A stretch of DNA of 64,000 bases from Myxococcales bacterium (GTDB lineage Bacteria > Myxococcota_A > Polyangia > Polyangiales > Houyiibacteriaceae): assembly GCA_029861865.1 (NCBI GenBank), contig JAOTYL010000002.1, positions 1 through 64,000 on the forward strand. Direction: 5' to 3'. Below the pieces are notes generated by a model, which ran no database searches, was not told the origin of the DNA, and was given only the letters and a program-made list of their open reading frames with translations. The position numbers and the translations under genes were made by a program. This document shows positions 37,355 through 45,371 of the stretch, one piece after another (within the stretch, counting starts at the first letter, position 1; each line of letters starts with the position of its first letter).

Positions 37355-38986
37355 ATGAAGCCTCCGAGCGTCAGAGGCCTGTCGGAAAGCGAGGAGGATC
37401 GCGCTTTCTTGCAACGGCGCGTCGCGCTTTTCGGTGCGTTCGTCGGAGGAGGCTACCTCTTCTTCTGGCTGTATCGAGTCGTGATTCTGCTCCTCGTCGA
37501 GGACTATGAGGGTTTTCGTCACCCGTCGTTTTGGTGGCACCTCGCGGCTGCGGTTCTTTTTCTCATGCTCTGGTTCTCGTGCCGGCTCGGGAAGCGCACG
37601 ACGCGCGCCATCCGGATCAGAGAGCTCGTGCTGCTCACGTTGGGTGTGTTTGCGACGGGAATGATGGGCGTCGCCATCGAGTTTGAGGCACGGCCGGACT
37701 TCATCTTGCTGCTGGCGCTTTCGAATGTGATCCTCGGACGAGCGATCTTCGTACCGAGCTCGGGGCGGTGGACTCTCACGCTCGGCGCGATCATCGGGGC
37801 GGTGCTTCTCACCTGCGTTTACCTCGGCTCGCTGAGCTTGGACCTACAAAAGTGGTCGGCGCTCTACCCGCAGATCATCGAGCAATCGCCTGAACACTTC
37901 GCCGCCGCCGTCATGGGCGAGATCGCAGCCTGGTGGTTGATCGCAGTGGCGCTGAGCGTTGCAACTTCGGTGGTCATCTACGGCCTGCGGCGCCGGGTGC
38001 GCGACGCTGAGCAGCTAGGCCAGTATCGTCTCGAAGAAAAGCTCGGCGAGGGAGGGATGGGCGCCGTCTATCGAGCAAGCCACTCGCTTCTACGACGACC
38101 AACCGCAGTGAAGCTTCTTCCGCCCGACAAGGCTGGGGCGGACAATCTTCGTCGGTTCGAGCAAGAGGTCCAGCTGACCGCAAGGCTCAACCATCCGCAC
38201 ACGATCACCATCTTCGACTACGGTCACACTTCGGATGGGTTGTTCTACTACGCGATGGAATACGTCGAGGGGCTGACATTGTCGGATCTGGTTGCGAGAT
38301 CCGGCGCGCAACCCGAAGGCCGGGTGGTGCACTTGATGCGACAGTCGGCCTCGGCTCTCGTTGAAGCACACGACATCGGCTTGGTTCATCGCGACATCAA
38401 GCCCGGCAACATCATGGTATGCCTGCATGCGCACGGCGGAGGAGGAGACTTCGTTAAAGTGCTCGACTTCGGTCTCGTCAAGGAAGTTCGAGGTGAAGGC
38501 GGCATCCAGTTGACCAACGCGGCGTATCTCGCCGGCACACCGCAATACATGGCACCCGAGTCCATCACCAACCCAGACACCGTCGATGCGCGCGCCGACC
38601 TCTATGCGCTTGGCGCCGTGGCCTATTACCTGTTGACCGGCACACACGTATTTGCGGGCAAGAGTGTCGTCGAAGTGTGTAGCCACCACCTGCACAGCAC
38701 CCCCGAGCCCTTGTCGTCGCGGCTTGGCCAACCAATCGCCCAGGATCTCGGAGAACTGGTGCTCTCATGCCTCGCCAAAGACCCGGCCGATCGGCCTCAG
38801 AGCGCGTTCGAGCTCGAGCGCCGACTGACTGAATGCTCCGGTGTCGCACCGTGGACCACCGAGGACGCGTTGGCTTGGTGGGCAACGCATGGTGAGCTCT
38901 TGCGAAAGGCACCCCCGCTCGGGGGCGAGGGTATGCTTACCGTCGATTTGCAGGTCACTTCCCGAGCTGGTCGCGACCGGGCATGA
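37355..38986 (+). CDS. Membrane-bound Ser/Thr protein kinase with N-terminal polytopic domain
   Basis: The ATG at 37355 gives 543 residues; upstream frame is non-coding. About 200 N-terminal residues contain five to six hydrophobic helices. The Hanks-type kinase begins near residue 223: LGEGGMGAVYRASH (P-loop), AVKLLPP (Lys), VHRDIKPGNIM (catalytic Asp), LDFGLVKE (DFG) and GTPQYMAPES. All catalytic residues are present. The usual myxobacterial layout is kinase first, membrane helix later; here membrane helices come first and the kinase faces the cytosol. Its 3' end overlaps the end of the convergent transporter gene by 32 bases. Confidence 0.9.
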   Translation: MKPPSVRGLSESEEDRAFLQRRVALFGAFVGGGYLFFWLYRVVILLLVEDYEGFRHPSFWWHLAAAVLFLMLWFSCRLGKRTTRAIRIRELVLLTLGVFATGMMGVAIEFEARPDFILLLALSNVILGRAIFVPSSGRWTLTLGAIIGAVLLTCVYLGSLSLDLQKWSALYPQIIEQSPEHFAAAVMGEIAAWWLIAVALSVATSVVIYGLRRRVRDAEQLGQYRLEEKLGEGGMGAVYRASHSLLRRPTAVKLLPPDKAGADNLRRFEQEVQLTARLNHPHTITIFDYGHTSDGLFYYAMEYVEGLTLSDLVARSGAQPEGRVVHLMRQSASALVEAHDIGLVHRDIKPGNIMVCLHAHGGGGDFVKVLDFGLVKEVRGEGGIQLTNAAYLAGTPQYMAPESITNPDTVDARADLYALGAVAYYLLTGTHVFAGKSVVEVCSHHLHSTPEPLSSRLGQPIAQDLGELVLSCLAKDPADRPQSAFELERRLTECSGVAPWTTEDALAWWATHGELLRKAPPLGGEGMLTVDLQVTSRAGRDRA

Positions 38987-41126
38987 GAGACCGCATGCTT
39001 TGCAGGAGCTCGTCCGGCGAGACCTTCGTCGAACGGACCGGGGGCCGTTCCGAGCGTTCGGTGAGCCGCGGCCAAAGGGCATCGCGAATTCGCTCGGGCA
39101 GAACGTTGTGCAGATACTCGAGCGCCGTGCCCCGTAGATTGGTGTCTTTACTCGAGAGCGCCCTGAGCGAAAGAACGACGGCTTCGCGATCGAGGATCAG
39201 GCTGAGCAGCGTAAACACATGCTGCAAGTTGCGGTCCTCGCGTGCCTCGAGCAGCGCATCGATTTCGCCTCGAATGTCAGGAGAAACTTCTTCGCTGAGA
39301 CGTCGTTGCTGCCATCGTTCCTGATCCGCTGCGACCTCTCGTTCGATCGCTTCCATGATCGTTCGGTCTGGGACGTCGAGGTTCGGGTTCTCGCGATGCA
39401 AAACTGAGAGCGCGTGCCCGCAGCGATAGCGAACATCGAACTCCGCGTCCCGAAGGCCTTCCAACAAGCCAGCGATGGCGCGCGGGTCGGAGACTCTCCT
39501 CAACAGCCGTGGAATTCGGCGGCGCGTGGCAAAAGGACTGTCGTCGGAAAGCATTGCATCGACCAGCTGACCGATGATCCGCGGGCTCATGCGCTCCAAG
39601 GCGTGGTGAGCAGGCCGAGCGTAGACGTCGTTTCCGAGCAAGTCGATCACATGAGCGGCGAATCGAGGGCTGAGGGATTCGTCCAGCAGAACTGTCAGCA
39701 CCCGCTCTGGCTCGTTGGACAATAGATCGGAAAGCTGGCCGATCCAGATCTGCCGATCACCGGCCCTTCCGTGGACGTCACGCTTGCGTTCGAGTGCTTC
39801 AATGCTGTCGAGAAGCTCTTGACGATTCATCATCGCGGCGCTCTCGGCAAAAGTATGAAGGGTCGTGGCGTCGACGATATCATCGGCCTGAAGCACGATC
39901 GACCCATCGCGCAGGCTCGTGGCGAGCTCGTGCACGTAGCCGTCGCGTAGTTGGAGGACCATCCAAGCGGAGATCAGCGCCACGAGGGTCGCGATCAAAA
40001 GCACCCACGACGTTGCGCCATCGACCGTGGCTGGGATTGCGACGATCACCATGATGATGGCGCTCCCGATCCCGTACCCAATTCGGTTGCAGGCGATGTC
40101 GATGAGCGCCTTGGTCGCCCGCTTCTTGAGCGGTTGAACCGGCGTGTAGAGAAGCTCGTACCCCGTGCGGAATAGGGAGCTCGAAACGACGGTCTGCGTT
40201 CCACGGGCGAGGGCAGTCGTCCAAAGCCGCGTCCACGCGGCACCCAAGCCGGCGCTGAGCGCGACTGCCAACGGCAGAATGGCCATCGTCCCACCGAGGC
40301 CGATCTTTTCTAAAAGCGGCTTTGCGGCGCCGGCTTGCATCACGAACGTCAGCAACGAAGTCGCCATGTAGAAGATTGCAAAGAAAGACAGAAGGCCCGC
40401 CGAGTCGGTGAAGCGCGCGTCGGCCTCTGCCTTCATCGCGTAATCCACGAACACACCGACGGTGCCGAGCAGCACGACCGTCACCGCGACTCTGCGGAGA
40501 TACGCGTCTTTGCGAATGGTTTGGATGCCAAACTTCGCCTGCTCCCCGGACGACCTTCTCGGTTGAGTGGGCTTGCCCATGTTCCAGACACCGAGCGCAA
40601 CCAGCAAGCTCACCGCAGCGAGGCCGTAGAGAACGACCGCGAGCGTGAAGTATTCCGAAAGAAGGAGCGCTACGATCCCTCCCAACACACCACCCAACGC
40701 GGCTGCCGTACCAGCGCGAGCGACTACGGTTTTTGCATAAAGCGGATCAAACCGTTCGTTGACGACGGATGAGAACGCGCTCACCACTAGAGCGCCGACG
40801 ACGCTGACGTGAACGTAGGTGACCACTGCGATGCTCTGCGGAAAGACGTCTAGCAGAGCTGCCTCCAAAACGAACACCGCTCCGTGGATGACCGCGAGAA
40901 CGAGCGCTGTGGCACGAGGACCCCAACGGGGCATCAAGCGGCCGACCCACACGGCGGCCAACAACGAAAGAGCCGCCGCGGCCAACATCACGCGAGGCAA
41001 GTACACCGCTGCGTATTCGGTCAAAAACAAGGTGTCGCGGACTGCACGGCCCGCGACCAGCTGTGCGACCATCGGGATCGACGTTAGGATCGCAACCGAT
41101 GCTGCGCGCTCGCGGGCTGGTTCCAC
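38955..41126 (-). CDS. NTT (ADP/ATP translocase)-like membrane transporter with C-terminal HEAT-repeat domain
   Basis: The 723-residue protein has about eleven hydrophobic helices in its first 410 residues, laid out like the major facilitator/NTT superfamily, with a repeated VTVVLLGTVGVFVDYAMKAE region in the middle. The remaining 300 residues are soluble and helical, with HEAT-like units such as DPRAIAGLLEGLRDAEFDVR and REAVVLSLRALSSKDTNLRG. The combination is found in NTT-type proteins of various free-living bacteria, where transport of nucleotides has not been shown. It converges on the kinase gene with a 32-base overlap of coding ends. Confidence 0.75.
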   Translation of the reverse strand: MEPARERAASVAILTSIPMVAQLVAGRAVRDTLFLTEYAAVYLPRVMLAAAALSLLAAVWVGRLMPRWGPRATALVLAVIHGAVFVLEAALLDVFPQSIAVVTYVHVSVVGALVVSAFSSVVNERFDPLYAKTVVARAGTAAALGGVLGGIVALLLSEYFTLAVVLYGLAAVSLLVALGVWNMGKPTQPRRSSGEQAKFGIQTIRKDAYLRRVAVTVVLLGTVGVFVDYAMKAEADARFTDSAGLLSFFAIFYMATSLLTFVMQAGAAKPLLEKIGLGGTMAILPLAVALSAGLGAAWTRLWTTALARGTQTVVSSSLFRTGYELLYTPVQPLKKRATKALIDIACNRIGYGIGSAIIMVIVAIPATVDGATSWVLLIATLVALISAWMVLQLRDGYVHELATSLRDGSIVLQADDIVDATTLHTFAESAAMMNRQELLDSIEALERKRDVHGRAGDRQIWIGQLSDLLSNEPERVLTVLLDESLSPRFAAHVIDLLGNDVYARPAHHALERMSPRIIGQLVDAMLSDDSPFATRRRIPRLLRRVSDPRAIAGLLEGLRDAEFDVRYRCGHALSVLHRENPNLDVPDRTIMEAIEREVAADQERWQQRRLSEEVSPDIRGEIDALLEAREDRNLQHVFTLLSLILDREAVVLSLRALSSKDTNLRGTALEYLHNVLPERIRDALWPRLTERSERPPVRSTKVSPDELLQSMRSLMPGRDQLGK

Positions 41127-41607: not shown

Positions 41608-42276
41608 ATGAGCAGCTTTGTCTGGATGAAGTTCCTCGAGTCGTCTCCCGGCCGCTATGACCGGGGTGTCGCGCTCTTATCTAAGGGGCGCATCGCAGAG
41701 GTCTATGAGACGATCGCCGAGCTCGCGGCATCGCCTGGAAAACGGGTTCTGGACATTGGCTGCGGCACCGGTGGGGTGTCGCTCGCCTGTGCGGCAAAAG
41801 GCGCTCAGGTGATTGCGATCGATTCGAACGCCGGGATGCTCGACATCGCCTGCGCGAAGCCTGTTCCGCGCGATCAGGGGGGCGACGTTGAGTGGATCGA
41901 AATGGGTCTTGCAGAGATCGAAGACCGATTTGGCGAAGCACACTTCGATGCAATCGTCTCCTGCCTCGTGTTCAGTGAGCTTTCGCCTGACGAGCAAGTT
42001 TACGCGCTTGACATCGCGCGCTCCCGATTGGTGCCCGGCGGGCGCCTGGTGATTGCCGATGAGGCTCTGCCCACGTCGGGACCCGAGCGGCTATGGTACC
42101 GCATGCGACAGCTTCCTCTTGCCCTGGTCACCTATTTGCTAACCCAAACGAGCACGCGACCGGTCGAGGGCCTCGCCGAAAGCATTCGACTAGCCGGTTT
42201 TGGTCGGGTTGAAGAAACGCGTCTTTGGGGGGATACGTTCATCGTCGTCAGTGCCGTCCGAGAGGATGTCGGATGA
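41608..42276 (+). CDS. Class I SAM methyltransferase, CpaM-like (corrinoid protein-associated)
   Basis: The 222-residue product is a small SAM-dependent methyltransferase: VLDIGCGTGGVSLACAAKGA (motif I), DSNAGMLDIA, FDAIVSCLVFSELSPDE (motif IV region) and RLVPGGRLVIADEALP (post-motif). The opening SSFVWMKFLESSPGRYDRGV and the ending GDTFIVVSAVRE also look characteristic of a narrow group I recall as CpaM, found next to HgcAB-like corrinoid fusion proteins. Its stop overlaps the start of exactly such a protein (ATGA at 42273-42276). It may supply or accept the methyl group on the corrinoid, or methylate an unknown product. Confidence 0.8.
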   Translation: MSSFVWMKFLESSPGRYDRGVALLSKGRIAEVYETIAELAASPGKRVLDIGCGTGGVSLACAAKGAQVIAIDSNAGMLDIACAKPVPRDQGGDVEWIEMGLAEIEDRFGEAHFDAIVSCLVFSELSPDEQVYALDIARSRLVPGGRLVIADEALPTSGPERLWYRMRQLPLALVTYLLTQTSTRPVEGLAESIRLAGFGRVEETRLWGDTFIVVSAVREDVG

Positions 42277-43394
42277 TGAGGCCGCAGGATTTTCCACATT
42301 GGCTGCGAGACACGATGCTCCGGATGTTTCCCCATCGTGCGCCGACCGGGCTTGTCCGGGTCGGTAATCCTGGACGCGACTCACCTGTGCTGGTCACCGG
42401 CAACTTTACACTCACGATTCGCCGGCTGATCGATGCGCTAAGGGGCCACGATGTCTGGCTGCTGTGTGCGAACAGTAAAGGCATCAACGTTTGGTGCGCG
42501 GCCGGCGGTGGTCACCTCACCCACCATGACATCATATCCGTCGTGCGAATCTCGCGGATCGGCGAGCTAGTCGACCATCGCGAGCTCGTACTGCCGCAGC
42601 TCTGCGCGACCGGCGTCGAGCGGCGCAAGATCACTGAAATCACTGGATGGTCTGCACGGTGGGGGCCGGCACGCCTGGAAGACCTCCCGGGGTTCTTGAG
42701 GCGGCGGCGGCACGTGGTCAAAGGCGAGCGGTTTGTTCGCTTTCCGGCCTGGGAACGAATGGAGATGTCCTTCATGTGGTCCTGGGCCCTCATCGCGCTC
42801 GCTCTGTTGGGTGCATGGGGGATCGGCAGCTGGGCGGTTGCGCTGTGCGCGCTCGCGGTGATTCTTGGGATCGTGGGAGGGATCTTCGCCGCATTGCCTT
42901 GGCTCATCGTGACGGGTCCAAAACGATGGCTCACTTTTGGCGCCTTCGCTGCAATCGGTTTCGGGGTAGGCGCGGGTGTTCTTGCTGCGCTTGGATCTGC
43001 AACCTCGGCTCATCTGTGGCTGGCTGCAGGCATCGCGATCGTTGCGACAGGCGTGCTCTCCATCGATCTTGCCGGGACCACGCCCTGGTACGGGAGCTAC
43101 ATCAATCGGTTTCACAACCCGGCGCTCGTCGACCTGGTGGAAACACGATGCACCGGTGCTGCCGAGTGCGTGCAGGTCTGCCCCCGCGACGTCTTGGAGA
43201 TGAATGGACACCGCAGAAAGGTCGAAATCAAACGACCAGACCAGTGCATTCAATGCGGAGCTTGCATCGTGCAGTGCCCCGAGGATGCTCTGCGCTTCCG
43301 GTACGATGATGGTCGCATCGTCGAAGCGGCGACAATTCGCCGTACACGCATGAATATGGTCGGACAACGAATCGTCGAGCTGCCCGAACCATGA
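42273..43394 (+). CDS. HgcAB-like fusion: corrinoid-binding HgcA-type domain, membrane helices, ferredoxin
   Basis: The ATG at 42273 overlaps the methyltransferase stop; 373 residues. Residues 20-165 match the corrinoid domain of HgcA, with the cap-helix motif GINVWCAAGGGHL (Cys75), followed by HRELVLPQLCATGVE and the DLPGFLRRR motif. True mercury methylators carry NVWCAAGK; here the Lys is Gly78-79. About four hydrophobic helices occupy 168-268. The C-terminus is an HgcB-like ferredoxin: cluster II motif CIQCGACIVQCPEDAL is complete, while the first motif CTGAAECVQVCP lacks the second Cys (Ala296). HgcA and HgcB are normally separate genes. The likely role is methyl transfer from a corrinoid, probably not to mercury. 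Confidence 0.85.
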   Translation: MMRPQDFPHWLRDTMLRMFPHRAPTGLVRVGNPGRDSPVLVTGNFTLTIRRLIDALRGHDVWLLCANSKGINVWCAAGGGHLTHHDIISVVRISRIGELVDHRELVLPQLCATGVERRKITEITGWSARWGPARLEDLPGFLRRRRHVVKGERFVRFPAWERMEMSFMWSWALIALALLGAWGIGSWAVALCALAVILGIVGGIFAALPWLIVTGPKRWLTFGAFAAIGFGVGAGVLAALGSATSAHLWLAAGIAIVATGVLSIDLAGTTPWYGSYINRFHNPALVDLVETRCTGAAECVQVCPRDVLEMNGHRRKVEIKRPDQCIQCGACIVQCPEDALRFRYDDGRIVEAATIRRTRMNMVGQRIVELPEP

Positions 43395-43401
43395 CGGCGC
43401 A

Positions 43402-44199
43402 TTAGCGAAAAGCCCAGGTGCCGTACCCCACCACTTCGTCTCGCGACCCCGCCGTGTCTCCCGAGTTACGAAGGTCGACTGTAGTGGCAGCTAGCGAATG
43501 GTGTCGCGCCGCTTGAAGCAGTCCCTGGACCGCGATGCATCCACACGCGTCATCGTGCTGGATTCGAGGTGGGTCGAGCGTCTCGATCGCACGGGCGGTG
43601 GCGGCGTCCATCTGCTTCGCGGTGTCGTAATCGAAGTAGTGGCTGAGGTCCGAACTGATGACGATCAAGGTTTCGTCGGCGCCCCAGCATGAGTCCAATA
43701 CCTCCGCCACTTGTTCCGGGGTTGCTTGCCCGACGGCGATCGGCATGAGGGTGAACCCCCGCAGCACCTCCTGCAGAAATGGAAGTTGAACCTCGAGGGA
43801 GTGCTCCCAACGGTGGGCTTCATTCAGCGCGTGGACGAAGGGCAAGCGCAGCAGACGCTGGCGACACGCATCGTCGAGGGGAACTTTTCCGAGGGGCGTT
43901 TCGAAAGCGTCGTGTGCCGCGACAGCGAGACCCGCAAACGGAACATGATGACTCGGTCCCAAGAGGATCACGCGCTTAATCCTGTCGCTGGCACCCTCCA
44001 ACAGCACGTAACCGCGAGCGGCGACGGGACCCGAATAGACCAAACCGGCATGCGGTACGATCAGCGCCTTCGGCGGCGTCTCGCTGAGCGCAGAAGATGC
44101 GCGAGCCGCCTCGAGGTACTGGTGAATCGCCCCATGAAGCTCCTTTGGTTGGGCAGGATAGAATGTGCCCGCAACCGCCGGTGGTCTCGCTGTCACCAT
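43402..44199 (-). CDS. amrB: AmmeMemoRadiSam system protein B (MEMO1 family)
   Basis: The 265-residue protein follows the Memo family closely: RPPAVAGTFYPAQPKEL at the start, ALIVPHAGLVYSGPVAARGY (with the conserved His), LLGPSHHVPF, the EAHRWEHSLEVQLPFLQ segment and VISSDLSHYFDYDTAKQMDA. Family members resemble non-haem iron dioxygenases and occur with an AMMECR1 protein and a radical SAM enzyme in the AmmeMemoRadiSam system of unknown product. It converges on the HgcAB-like gene (7 bases between stops) and diverges from the radical SAM gene after about 50 bases. Confidence 0.9.
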   Translation of the reverse strand: MVTARPPAVAGTFYPAQPKELHGAIHQYLEAARASSALSETPPKALIVPHAGLVYSGPVAARGYVLLEGASDRIKRVILLGPSHHVPFAGLAVAAHDAFETPLGKVPLDDACRQRLLRLPFVHALNEAHRWEHSLEVQLPFLQEVLRGFTLMPIAVGQATPEQVAEVLDSCWGADETLIVISSDLSHYFDYDTAKQMDAATARAIETLDPPRIQHDDACGCIAVQGLLQAARHHSLAATTVDLRNSGDTAGSRDEVVGYGTWAFR

Positions 44200-44252
44200 A
44201 AGGCGACTGTGCCCACGACCGCGCGCTTGTCAATGGTCGTCAGAGGTTGCGG

Positions 44253-45371
44253 TTGAACACCGCCGTGCGCATGTTGTTTTTGATGGTGTTGAGCACCGAT
44301 AGCTCGGCGAGCACGGTCGAGACCAAGTATTGGCGCCTTCTCGAAGACGGGCGCGTCTTGTGTGAAGTGTGCCCACGAGCGTGCAAGCTACATGAAGGCC
44401 AGCGAGGCTTGTGTTTCGTCAGGGCTCGGGAAAACGATCAAGTCGTGCTCACGACCTATGGTCGGTCGAGCGGTTTTTGCGTCGATCCGATCGAAAAAAA
44501 GCCATTGAACCACTTCTTGCCCGGCACGCCGGTGTTTTCGTTCGGCACCGCCGGATGCAATCTCACCTGCAAGTTTTGCCAGAACTGGGACATCTCGAAA
44601 TCGCGCGAGATCGATACGCTGGCCGACGCAGCAAGCCCCGAGCAAATCGCAGAGACCGCCGCGCGCCTCGGCTGTCGAAGCGTTGCATTCACCTACAACG
44701 ACCCGATCATCTTTCTCGAGTACGCGCGAGACGTCGCGGAGGCTTGTAAAGAAAGAAACATAGCCACCGTCGCGGTGACCGCCGGATACATGAACCCGGA
44801 GCCCAGAGCCGAGTTCTTCTCGTTCATCGACGCGACGAACGTCGACCTCAAGGCATTCGACGAAGATTTCTATCGACGCATTGCAGGAGGAAAGCTCGAA
44901 ACTGTCCTCGAGACTCTTCGCTATCTCCGGAGCGAGGGGTCGACTTGGTTTGAGATCACGACTCTATTGATACCGGGACACAACGACAGCGATGATGAGA
45001 TCGGTCGCATGAGCGATTGGATCGTCCACGAGCTCGGCCCAGACGTCCCGCTTCACTTCTCGGCGTTTCACCCAGACTACAAAATGCGGGACGTCCCGCC
45101 GACGCCGAAAGCGACACTCGAGCGTGCTCGCAGGATCGCCCGCGAGGCGGGGATTCACCATGTCTACACGGGCAACGTGCATGACCGTGAAGGCGACACG
45201 ACATTCTGCGCCAACTGCGGCAAGAAGCTCATCGTCCGCGACTGGTACGAGCTCTTGGAGTGGAACCTCCGAGACGGCGCCTGTCCCGACTGCGGCGCCG
45301 CGTGCGCCGGCGTGTTCGAATCCCGCCCTGGCGCCTGGGGTGCGAAGCGGCTTCCGATCCGAATGTCCTGA
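44253..45371 (+). CDS. amrS: AmmeMemoRadiSam system radical SAM enzyme
   Basis: The protein of about 372 residues has the radical SAM cluster motif CNLTCKFCQNWDISKS, preceded by a family-specific Cys-rich start (VLCEVCPRACKLHEGQRGLC) and followed by RSVAFTYNDPIIFLEYARDV, as in AmrS. The C-terminus carries two CxxC knuckles (CANCGKK and CPDCGAAC). The start is uncertain: TTG at 44253 has AGAGG six bases upstream, while ATGs at 44271 and 44283 lack a ribosome site; family members normally begin near the ETKYWRLLEDG phrase. It diverges from protein B. No AMMECR1 (protein A) gene lies in the window, so the third component must be elsewhere. Confidence 0.9.
   Translation: MNTAVRMLFLMVLSTDSSASTVETKYWRLLEDGRVLCEVCPRACKLHEGQRGLCFVRARENDQVVLTTYGRSSGFCVDPIEKKPLNHFLPGTPVFSFGTAGCNLTCKFCQNWDISKSREIDTLADAASPEQIAETAARLGCRSVAFTYNDPIIFLEYARDVAEACKERNIATVAVTAGYMNPEPRAEFFSFIDATNVDLKAFDEDFYRRIAGGKLETVLETLRYLRSEGSTWFEITTLLIPGHNDSDDEIGRMSDWIVHELGPDVPLHFSAFHPDYKMRDVPPTPKATLERARRIAREAGIHHVYTGNVHDREGDTTFCANCGKKLIVRDWYELLEWNLRDGACPDCGAACAGVFESRPGAWGAKRLPIRMS

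Follow-up and report, generated by a model that had tools for sequence, protein, structure and literature searches.

The window (the whole 64,000-nucleotide stretch of DNA analysed here) contains two overlapping genes on the same strand, encoding a SAM-dependent methyltransferase (P0001) and a protein in which an HgcA-like and an HgcB-like part are joined (P0002). The overlap is the four-base sequence ATGA at 42273-42276, in which the stop codon TGA of cpaM (42274-42276) and the start codon ATG of the fusion gene (42273-42275) are interleaved. The features at the locus are listed below.

41608..42276, + strand: CpaM, SAM-dependent methyltransferase (222 aa, P0001), NF043040 match, SAM motif LDIGCGTGG
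42273..43394, + strand: HgcAB-like fusion protein (373 aa, P0002), NF043039 match, AF2 model
42330..42710, + strand: corrinoid-binding domain of P0002, about residues 20-146, from the alignment with CFeSP 2ycl_A and PF03599 (CdhD)
42486..42512, + strand: cap helix (NVWCAAGGG), whose Cys75 is predicted from alignment to ligate cobalt
42747..43067, + strand: four transmembrane helices, residues 159-265, from AF2 secondary structure
43122..43307, + strand: HgcB-like dicluster ferredoxin, from Pfam Fer4 hits
43402-44199, - strand, and 44256-45371, + strand: MEMO1-family protein (TIGR04336) and AmmeMemoRadiSam radical SAM enzyme (TIGR04337)

In profile searches, P0001 matches the CpaM family NF043040 with 272.3 bits (E 2.4e-81, cut-off 180), and P0002 matches the HgcAB_like family NF043039 with 398.8 bits (E 2.8e-119, cut-off 285) over profile positions 3-350 of 350. 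CpaM membership also requires a neighbouring corrinoid protein, and here cpaM lies directly upstream of the fusion gene. The matches of P0002 to HgcA NF040863 (155.1 bits, E 2.4e-45, cut-off 275) and HgcB NF040864 (53 bits, E 1.9e-14, cut-off 99) are below the cut-offs. The window pair are ordinary members of NF043039 and NF043040, and the locus is a genuine conserved two-gene unit of named, uncharacterised families. NCBIfam already names both families without assigning a function, and we found no use of the names CpaM or HgcAB-like fusion in the open-access papers searched. A sequence-only reading of this DNA had described two overlapping genes for a SAM methyltransferase and an HgcA/HgcB-type fusion, named these two families as having no known function, and taken the N-terminal domain of the fusion for an HgcA relative; the profile matches and the ATGA overlap bear this out. 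Its description of the system as undescribed was too strong, as both families are named in NCBIfam and fused hgcAB had already been published (PMC5893877).

The AlphaFold2 model of P0002 (pLDDT 92.9, pTM 0.88) consists of a corrinoid-type domain, four long helices, and a ferredoxin domain. The first of these has the fold of the C-terminal part of CFeSP (2ycl_A; Z 20.1, rmsd 1.8, 128 residues aligned with VIA-align), and residues 1-282 align with the published HgcA model 9a0b_A (Z 16.2, rmsd 5.4). The cap helix reads GINVWCAAGGGH. Its Cys, residue 75, is invariant across 50 aligned sequences, classical HgcA among them, and is the predicted cobalt ligand. The motif G(I/V)NVWCAAGK has been used to recognize the cap helix of HgcA (PMC7438021), and the corresponding stretch of P0002 is GINVWCAAGG. 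The helices of the model span residues 159-184, 187-206, 218-239, and 245-265, and a crude hydropathy count matches this four-helix picture only roughly. With four helices, both termini of P0002 would face the same compartment, an arrangement compatible with a C-terminally fused ferredoxin. For HgcA, five transmembrane helices are reported (PMC7305189).

The first cluster motif of the ferredoxin domain (C293-TGA-AE-C299-VQV-C303-P) contains three Cys residues and has Ala where the second Cys is normally found; the second motif, CIQCGACIVQCP, is intact. The 38-residue tail that follows it, PEDALRFRYDDGRIVEAATIRRTRMNMVGQRIVELPEP, contains no Cys. By analogy with known 7Fe ferredoxins, the three-Cys first cluster is probably of the [3Fe-4S] kind. 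The lost Cys had been counted as a sign of a different methyl-transfer reaction. It is a weak guide, because close relatives differ at this position (CKGVGFC in locus L145 vs CNGCGFC in locus L146), and we dropped it as functional evidence. Such variation is common among 7Fe/8Fe ferredoxins.

CpaM is a class I SAM methyltransferase whose relatives, such as UbiE and ArsM, are small-molecule methyltransferases. Each of the residues M7, E11, Y17, G27, D72, S123, and E152 is shared by 97% or more of 52 CpaM sequences. A model containing CpaM has the bacterial phosphatidylethanolamine methyltransferase 8ys9 among its structural matches (TMt 0.77), and a model of a CpaM-HgcA-HgcB triple fusion has a pTM of 0.66, with the arrangement of the domains relative to each other uncertain. 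The CpaM of L145:2550-3242 (L170:10023-10715) begins with helicase-like sequence in place of its N-terminal 60 residues and so has no SAM motif I, which may reflect decay, recombination, or an assembly error.

Among 284 genomes of the window's phylum, profile searches found 24 HgcAB_like loci in 22 genomes. CpaM, either scoring above its cut-off or truncated where a contig ends, was found in all 22 of these and in a single additional genome (G235). There, CpaM is followed by the start of a fusion gene that is truncated by the end of the contig shortly ahead of the cap helix. The two genes are thus never separate in the 284 genomes, which answers the question of co-conservation raised by the sequence-only reading. 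In a scan of named genomes, the same pair was found in Actinomycetota, Acidobacteriota, Chloroflexota, Aminicenantes, Deferribacterota, Thermodesulfobacteriota, and Bdellovibrionota among bacteria, and in Thermoproteota, Bathyarchaeota, and Heimdallarchaeota. CpaM and HgcA form single proteins at six Chloroflexi, one Poribacteria, and two Thorarchaeota loci, and CpaM, HgcA, and HgcB form one protein at a Caldithrix locus. The distance matrices of CpaM and the HgcA-like proteins are correlated (r 0.79, 52 pairs; permutation maximum 0.18). In the window's own genus, the pair is present in 3 of 5 genomes with differing flanks, which suggests that it moves or is lost as one unit; plasmid copies were looked for and none were found. 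Some CpaM-coupled systems have HgcB as a separate protein, so the HgcA-HgcB fusion, also put forward earlier as an argument for a different reaction, is not decisive.

The earlier note suggested a survey of the neighbours for a conserved third gene. The only recurrent neighbour is a TetR-family regulator, which immediately precedes CpaM at 14 loci. It is absent from the window locus and was found beside no classical hgcA, and it hints at an organic inducer. ArsR-type regulators have been reported beside hgcAB (PMC7438021). Downstream of the window pair are the two AmmeMemoRadiSam genes (43402-45371), which belong to a named system without known function. We rejected them as part of the CpaM system, as they adjoin the pair only in the window genome (G000) and in G013, and they stay together without a nearby CpaM-HgcAB in G131, G169, and G178. 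By genome, they co-occur with the pair in 17 of 22 cases vs 111 of 262 without it (Fisher p 0.003), an enrichment only, with kinship uncorrected. Upstream of cpaM, the window carries a TLC/MFS-type membrane transporter with a C-terminal HEAT-repeat part (38955-41126, - strand). At a Bdellovibrionales locus, a gene resembling indolepyruvate-ferredoxin oxidoreductase directly follows the fusion gene (L060:11106-12962) and is a possible electron source. The window genome contains a heme-copper oxidase and two cobalamin riboswitches, whereas searches for CbiC, a corrin-ring enzyme, and for the corrinoid protein of acetyl-CoA synthase gave no match. The genome therefore probably encodes salvage of cobalamin.

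To judge from its sequence, the methyl acceptor of the window pair is probably not mercury. Lys follows NVWCAAG in 53 of 54 classical HgcA rows (the exception is L109) and in none of the 51 CpaM-coupled rows. Where HgcB has Cys73, each of the 48 classical HgcB proteins found shows either Cys or an in-frame TGA, whereas 41 of 43 fusions are devoid of Cys past the second Fe-S motif. These differences sit on one or two tree branches, and the large counts are not independent observations. The change of the cap Lys to Gly, proposed earlier as a non-mercury sign, is therefore a feature of the whole group. The stronger argument, which the sequence-only reading missed, is the absence of both Cys73 and the C-terminal Cys tail past the second cluster. 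In HgcB, the Cys73Ala mutation abolishes mercury methylation, and a Cys94/95 double mutant loses 95% of the activity (PMC7305189). The earlier interpretation is thus partly supported: the absent cap Lys speaks for it, the lost cluster Cys is a weak argument, and the fusion is not decisive. Examination of 54 classical HgcA loci turned up no CpaM. Pyrococcus furiosus and Methanococcoides methylutens, which have fused hgcAB, made no methylmercury (PMC5893877). Two fused hgcAB loci in Methanosarcinales have CpaM directly upstream with a four-base overlap as in the window, and CpaM lacks SAM motif I in one of them; these loci may stand for M. methylutens, a link made by taxonomic order only.

We note two further arrangements at classical loci. 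The in-frame TGA at the Cys73 site occurs in seven classical HgcB genes (L057, L068, L069, L074, L077, L096, and L107), which keep the normal Cys-rich tail ending in Cys-Cys, and it likely encodes selenocysteine, as the literature suggests. In one Anaerolineales genome and one Methanoperedens genome (L078:8947-9876 and L088:8933-9745), a gene for an ArsM-type arsenite methyltransferase (PRK11873 family) precedes classical hgcA by 44-46 bases; we considered these genes as CpaM and rejected them, as they belong to a different family.

In a tree of the HgcA family rooted on corrinoid iron-sulfur proteins, classical HgcA forms one clade (100/99) and 43 CpaM-coupled proteins form another (97/88). 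The Thorarchaeota CpaM-HgcA fusions branch beside classical HgcA, though this placement is weakly supported (92/52); the fusion from Poribacteria stands apart. Unlike nearly all other CpaM-coupled proteins, the Thorarchaeota and Poribacteria systems have a Cys at the Cys73 site. At L070:5934-7688, L105:9209-10945, and L082:9242-10828, CpaM-HgcA lies beside an HgcB with a Cys73-like cysteine, and the Thorarchaeota ones also have the Cys-Cys tail; these arrangements are possible intermediates between CpaM-coupled and classical systems. The CpaM tree groups the three Thorarchaeota and Poribacteria sequences (94/60) and is otherwise poorly resolved. These placements and the Cys at the Cys73 site are compatible with a CpaM-coupled ancestor of mercury methylation, but a single clade for all CpaM-coupled proteins is not rejected (p 0.36), so we treat such an ancestor as a hypothesis. 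It is conceivable, and we propose it tentatively, that an uncharacterised membrane class passing methyl groups from SAM to corrinoid to acceptor, CpaM-HgcAB, gave rise to mercury methylation. An HgcA ancestor would have been coupled to CpaM; the metal-handling cysteines of HgcB would have arisen with CpaM still fused, as in present Thorarchaeota and Poribacteria; and classical HgcA would later have dropped CpaM and retained the SAM donor.

We consider it fairly probable that the window pair is a two-component membrane SAM:corrinoid methyltransferase, with an acceptor that is most probably not mercury. CpaM would bind SAM and methylate the corrinoid of the HgcA-like domain in its Co(I) state, after which Cys75 would ligate the cobalt from below. 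From the Cys-ligated methyl-Co(III) species, the methyl group would move on to an acceptor accessible at the membrane, and the fused ferredoxin would re-reduce the cobalt when needed. The domains, the strict pairing, the natural fusions, and the lack of the cysteines that HgcB needs for mercury are observed here, and from them we infer cofactor binding, cobalt as the target of CpaM, electron flow, and a non-mercury acceptor. The corrinoid fold, the invariant Cys75, the correlated distance matrices, and the presence of cobalamin riboswitches in a genome with no acetyl-CoA-synthase corrinoid protein also favour this reading. The constant pairing of CpaM with a related corrinoid protein, and its occasional fusion to it, are most simply explained if CpaM loads that corrinoid. 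In classical HgcAB, the methyl group comes from SAM through methyl-Co(III) with Cys ligation, and the purified proteins use SAM without any CpaM (PMC11588087). This last observation counts against the loading model, as CpaM could have another job. Such a job might be methylation of the acceptor or product, for example a metalloid or a membrane lipid, so that the two proteins add methyl groups successively. The small-molecule relatives UbiE and ArsM and the match to 8ys9 suit this proposal, as does the use of SAM by classical HgcAB without a partner, but we find it unlikely: a modifier of a free product should sometimes occur alone, yet within the phylum CpaM always accompanies the corrinoid domain, and several lineages have the two as one protein. 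No conserved substrate gene was found at CpaM-HgcAB loci.

CpaM could also reactivate the corrinoid by reductive methylation, with another methyl donor working in turnover. The SAM domain of methionine synthase reactivates its corrinoid in this way, and by analogy a ferredoxin and a SAM enzyme would suit reactivation from Co(II). This role appears rather improbable to us, as classical HgcAB already draws on SAM for turnover (PMC11588087) and the loci share no conserved gene for a different methyl donor. That the pair is a mercury methylation system and the fusion a divergent HgcAB is a reading to which we give very little weight. P0002 is homologous to HgcA (2.4e-45) and retains Cys75 and a transmembrane domain, but its score is under the HgcA cut-off, the cap Lys, Cys73, and tail cysteines are absent, the classical HgcA clade (100/99) excludes it, and the fused-hgcAB organisms that were tested made no methylmercury (PMC5893877).

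That a widespread sister system has a dedicated SAM methyltransferase but not the cysteines that handle mercury points to a native reaction on something other than mercury. The two-protein CpaM-fusion system bears on the native role and origin of HgcAB and on its choice of SAM as donor, and is a concrete target for assay. The sequence rules described here (cap Lys, HgcB Cys73 with the tail, and absence of CpaM) could keep such genes out of surveys of methylmercury producers.

Compared with known systems, the window pair is closest to the families NF043039 and NF043040, scoring well above the curated cut-offs, with the two genes adjacent and in the same order. The fused hgcAB of Pyrococcus furiosus, Methanococcoides, and Kosmotoga share the HgcA-HgcB fusion and would belong to the same family. 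With CFeSP/CdhD, the pair shares the fold of the corrinoid-binding domain (Z 20), whereas CFeSP is soluble, has no cap-helix Cys ligand, and receives its methyl group from methyltetrahydrofolate. With HgcA and HgcB, it shares the corrinoid fold, the cap-helix Cys, membrane helices, a dicluster ferredoxin, and SAM as the likely methyl source, but it has a separate SAM methyltransferase, Gly in place of the cap Lys, four helices rather than five, and a fused ferredoxin without Cys73 and without the Cys tail. Taken together, the pair appears to act as an HgcAB relative supplied with methyl groups by SAM, but its sequence does not pass as that of a mercury methylator.
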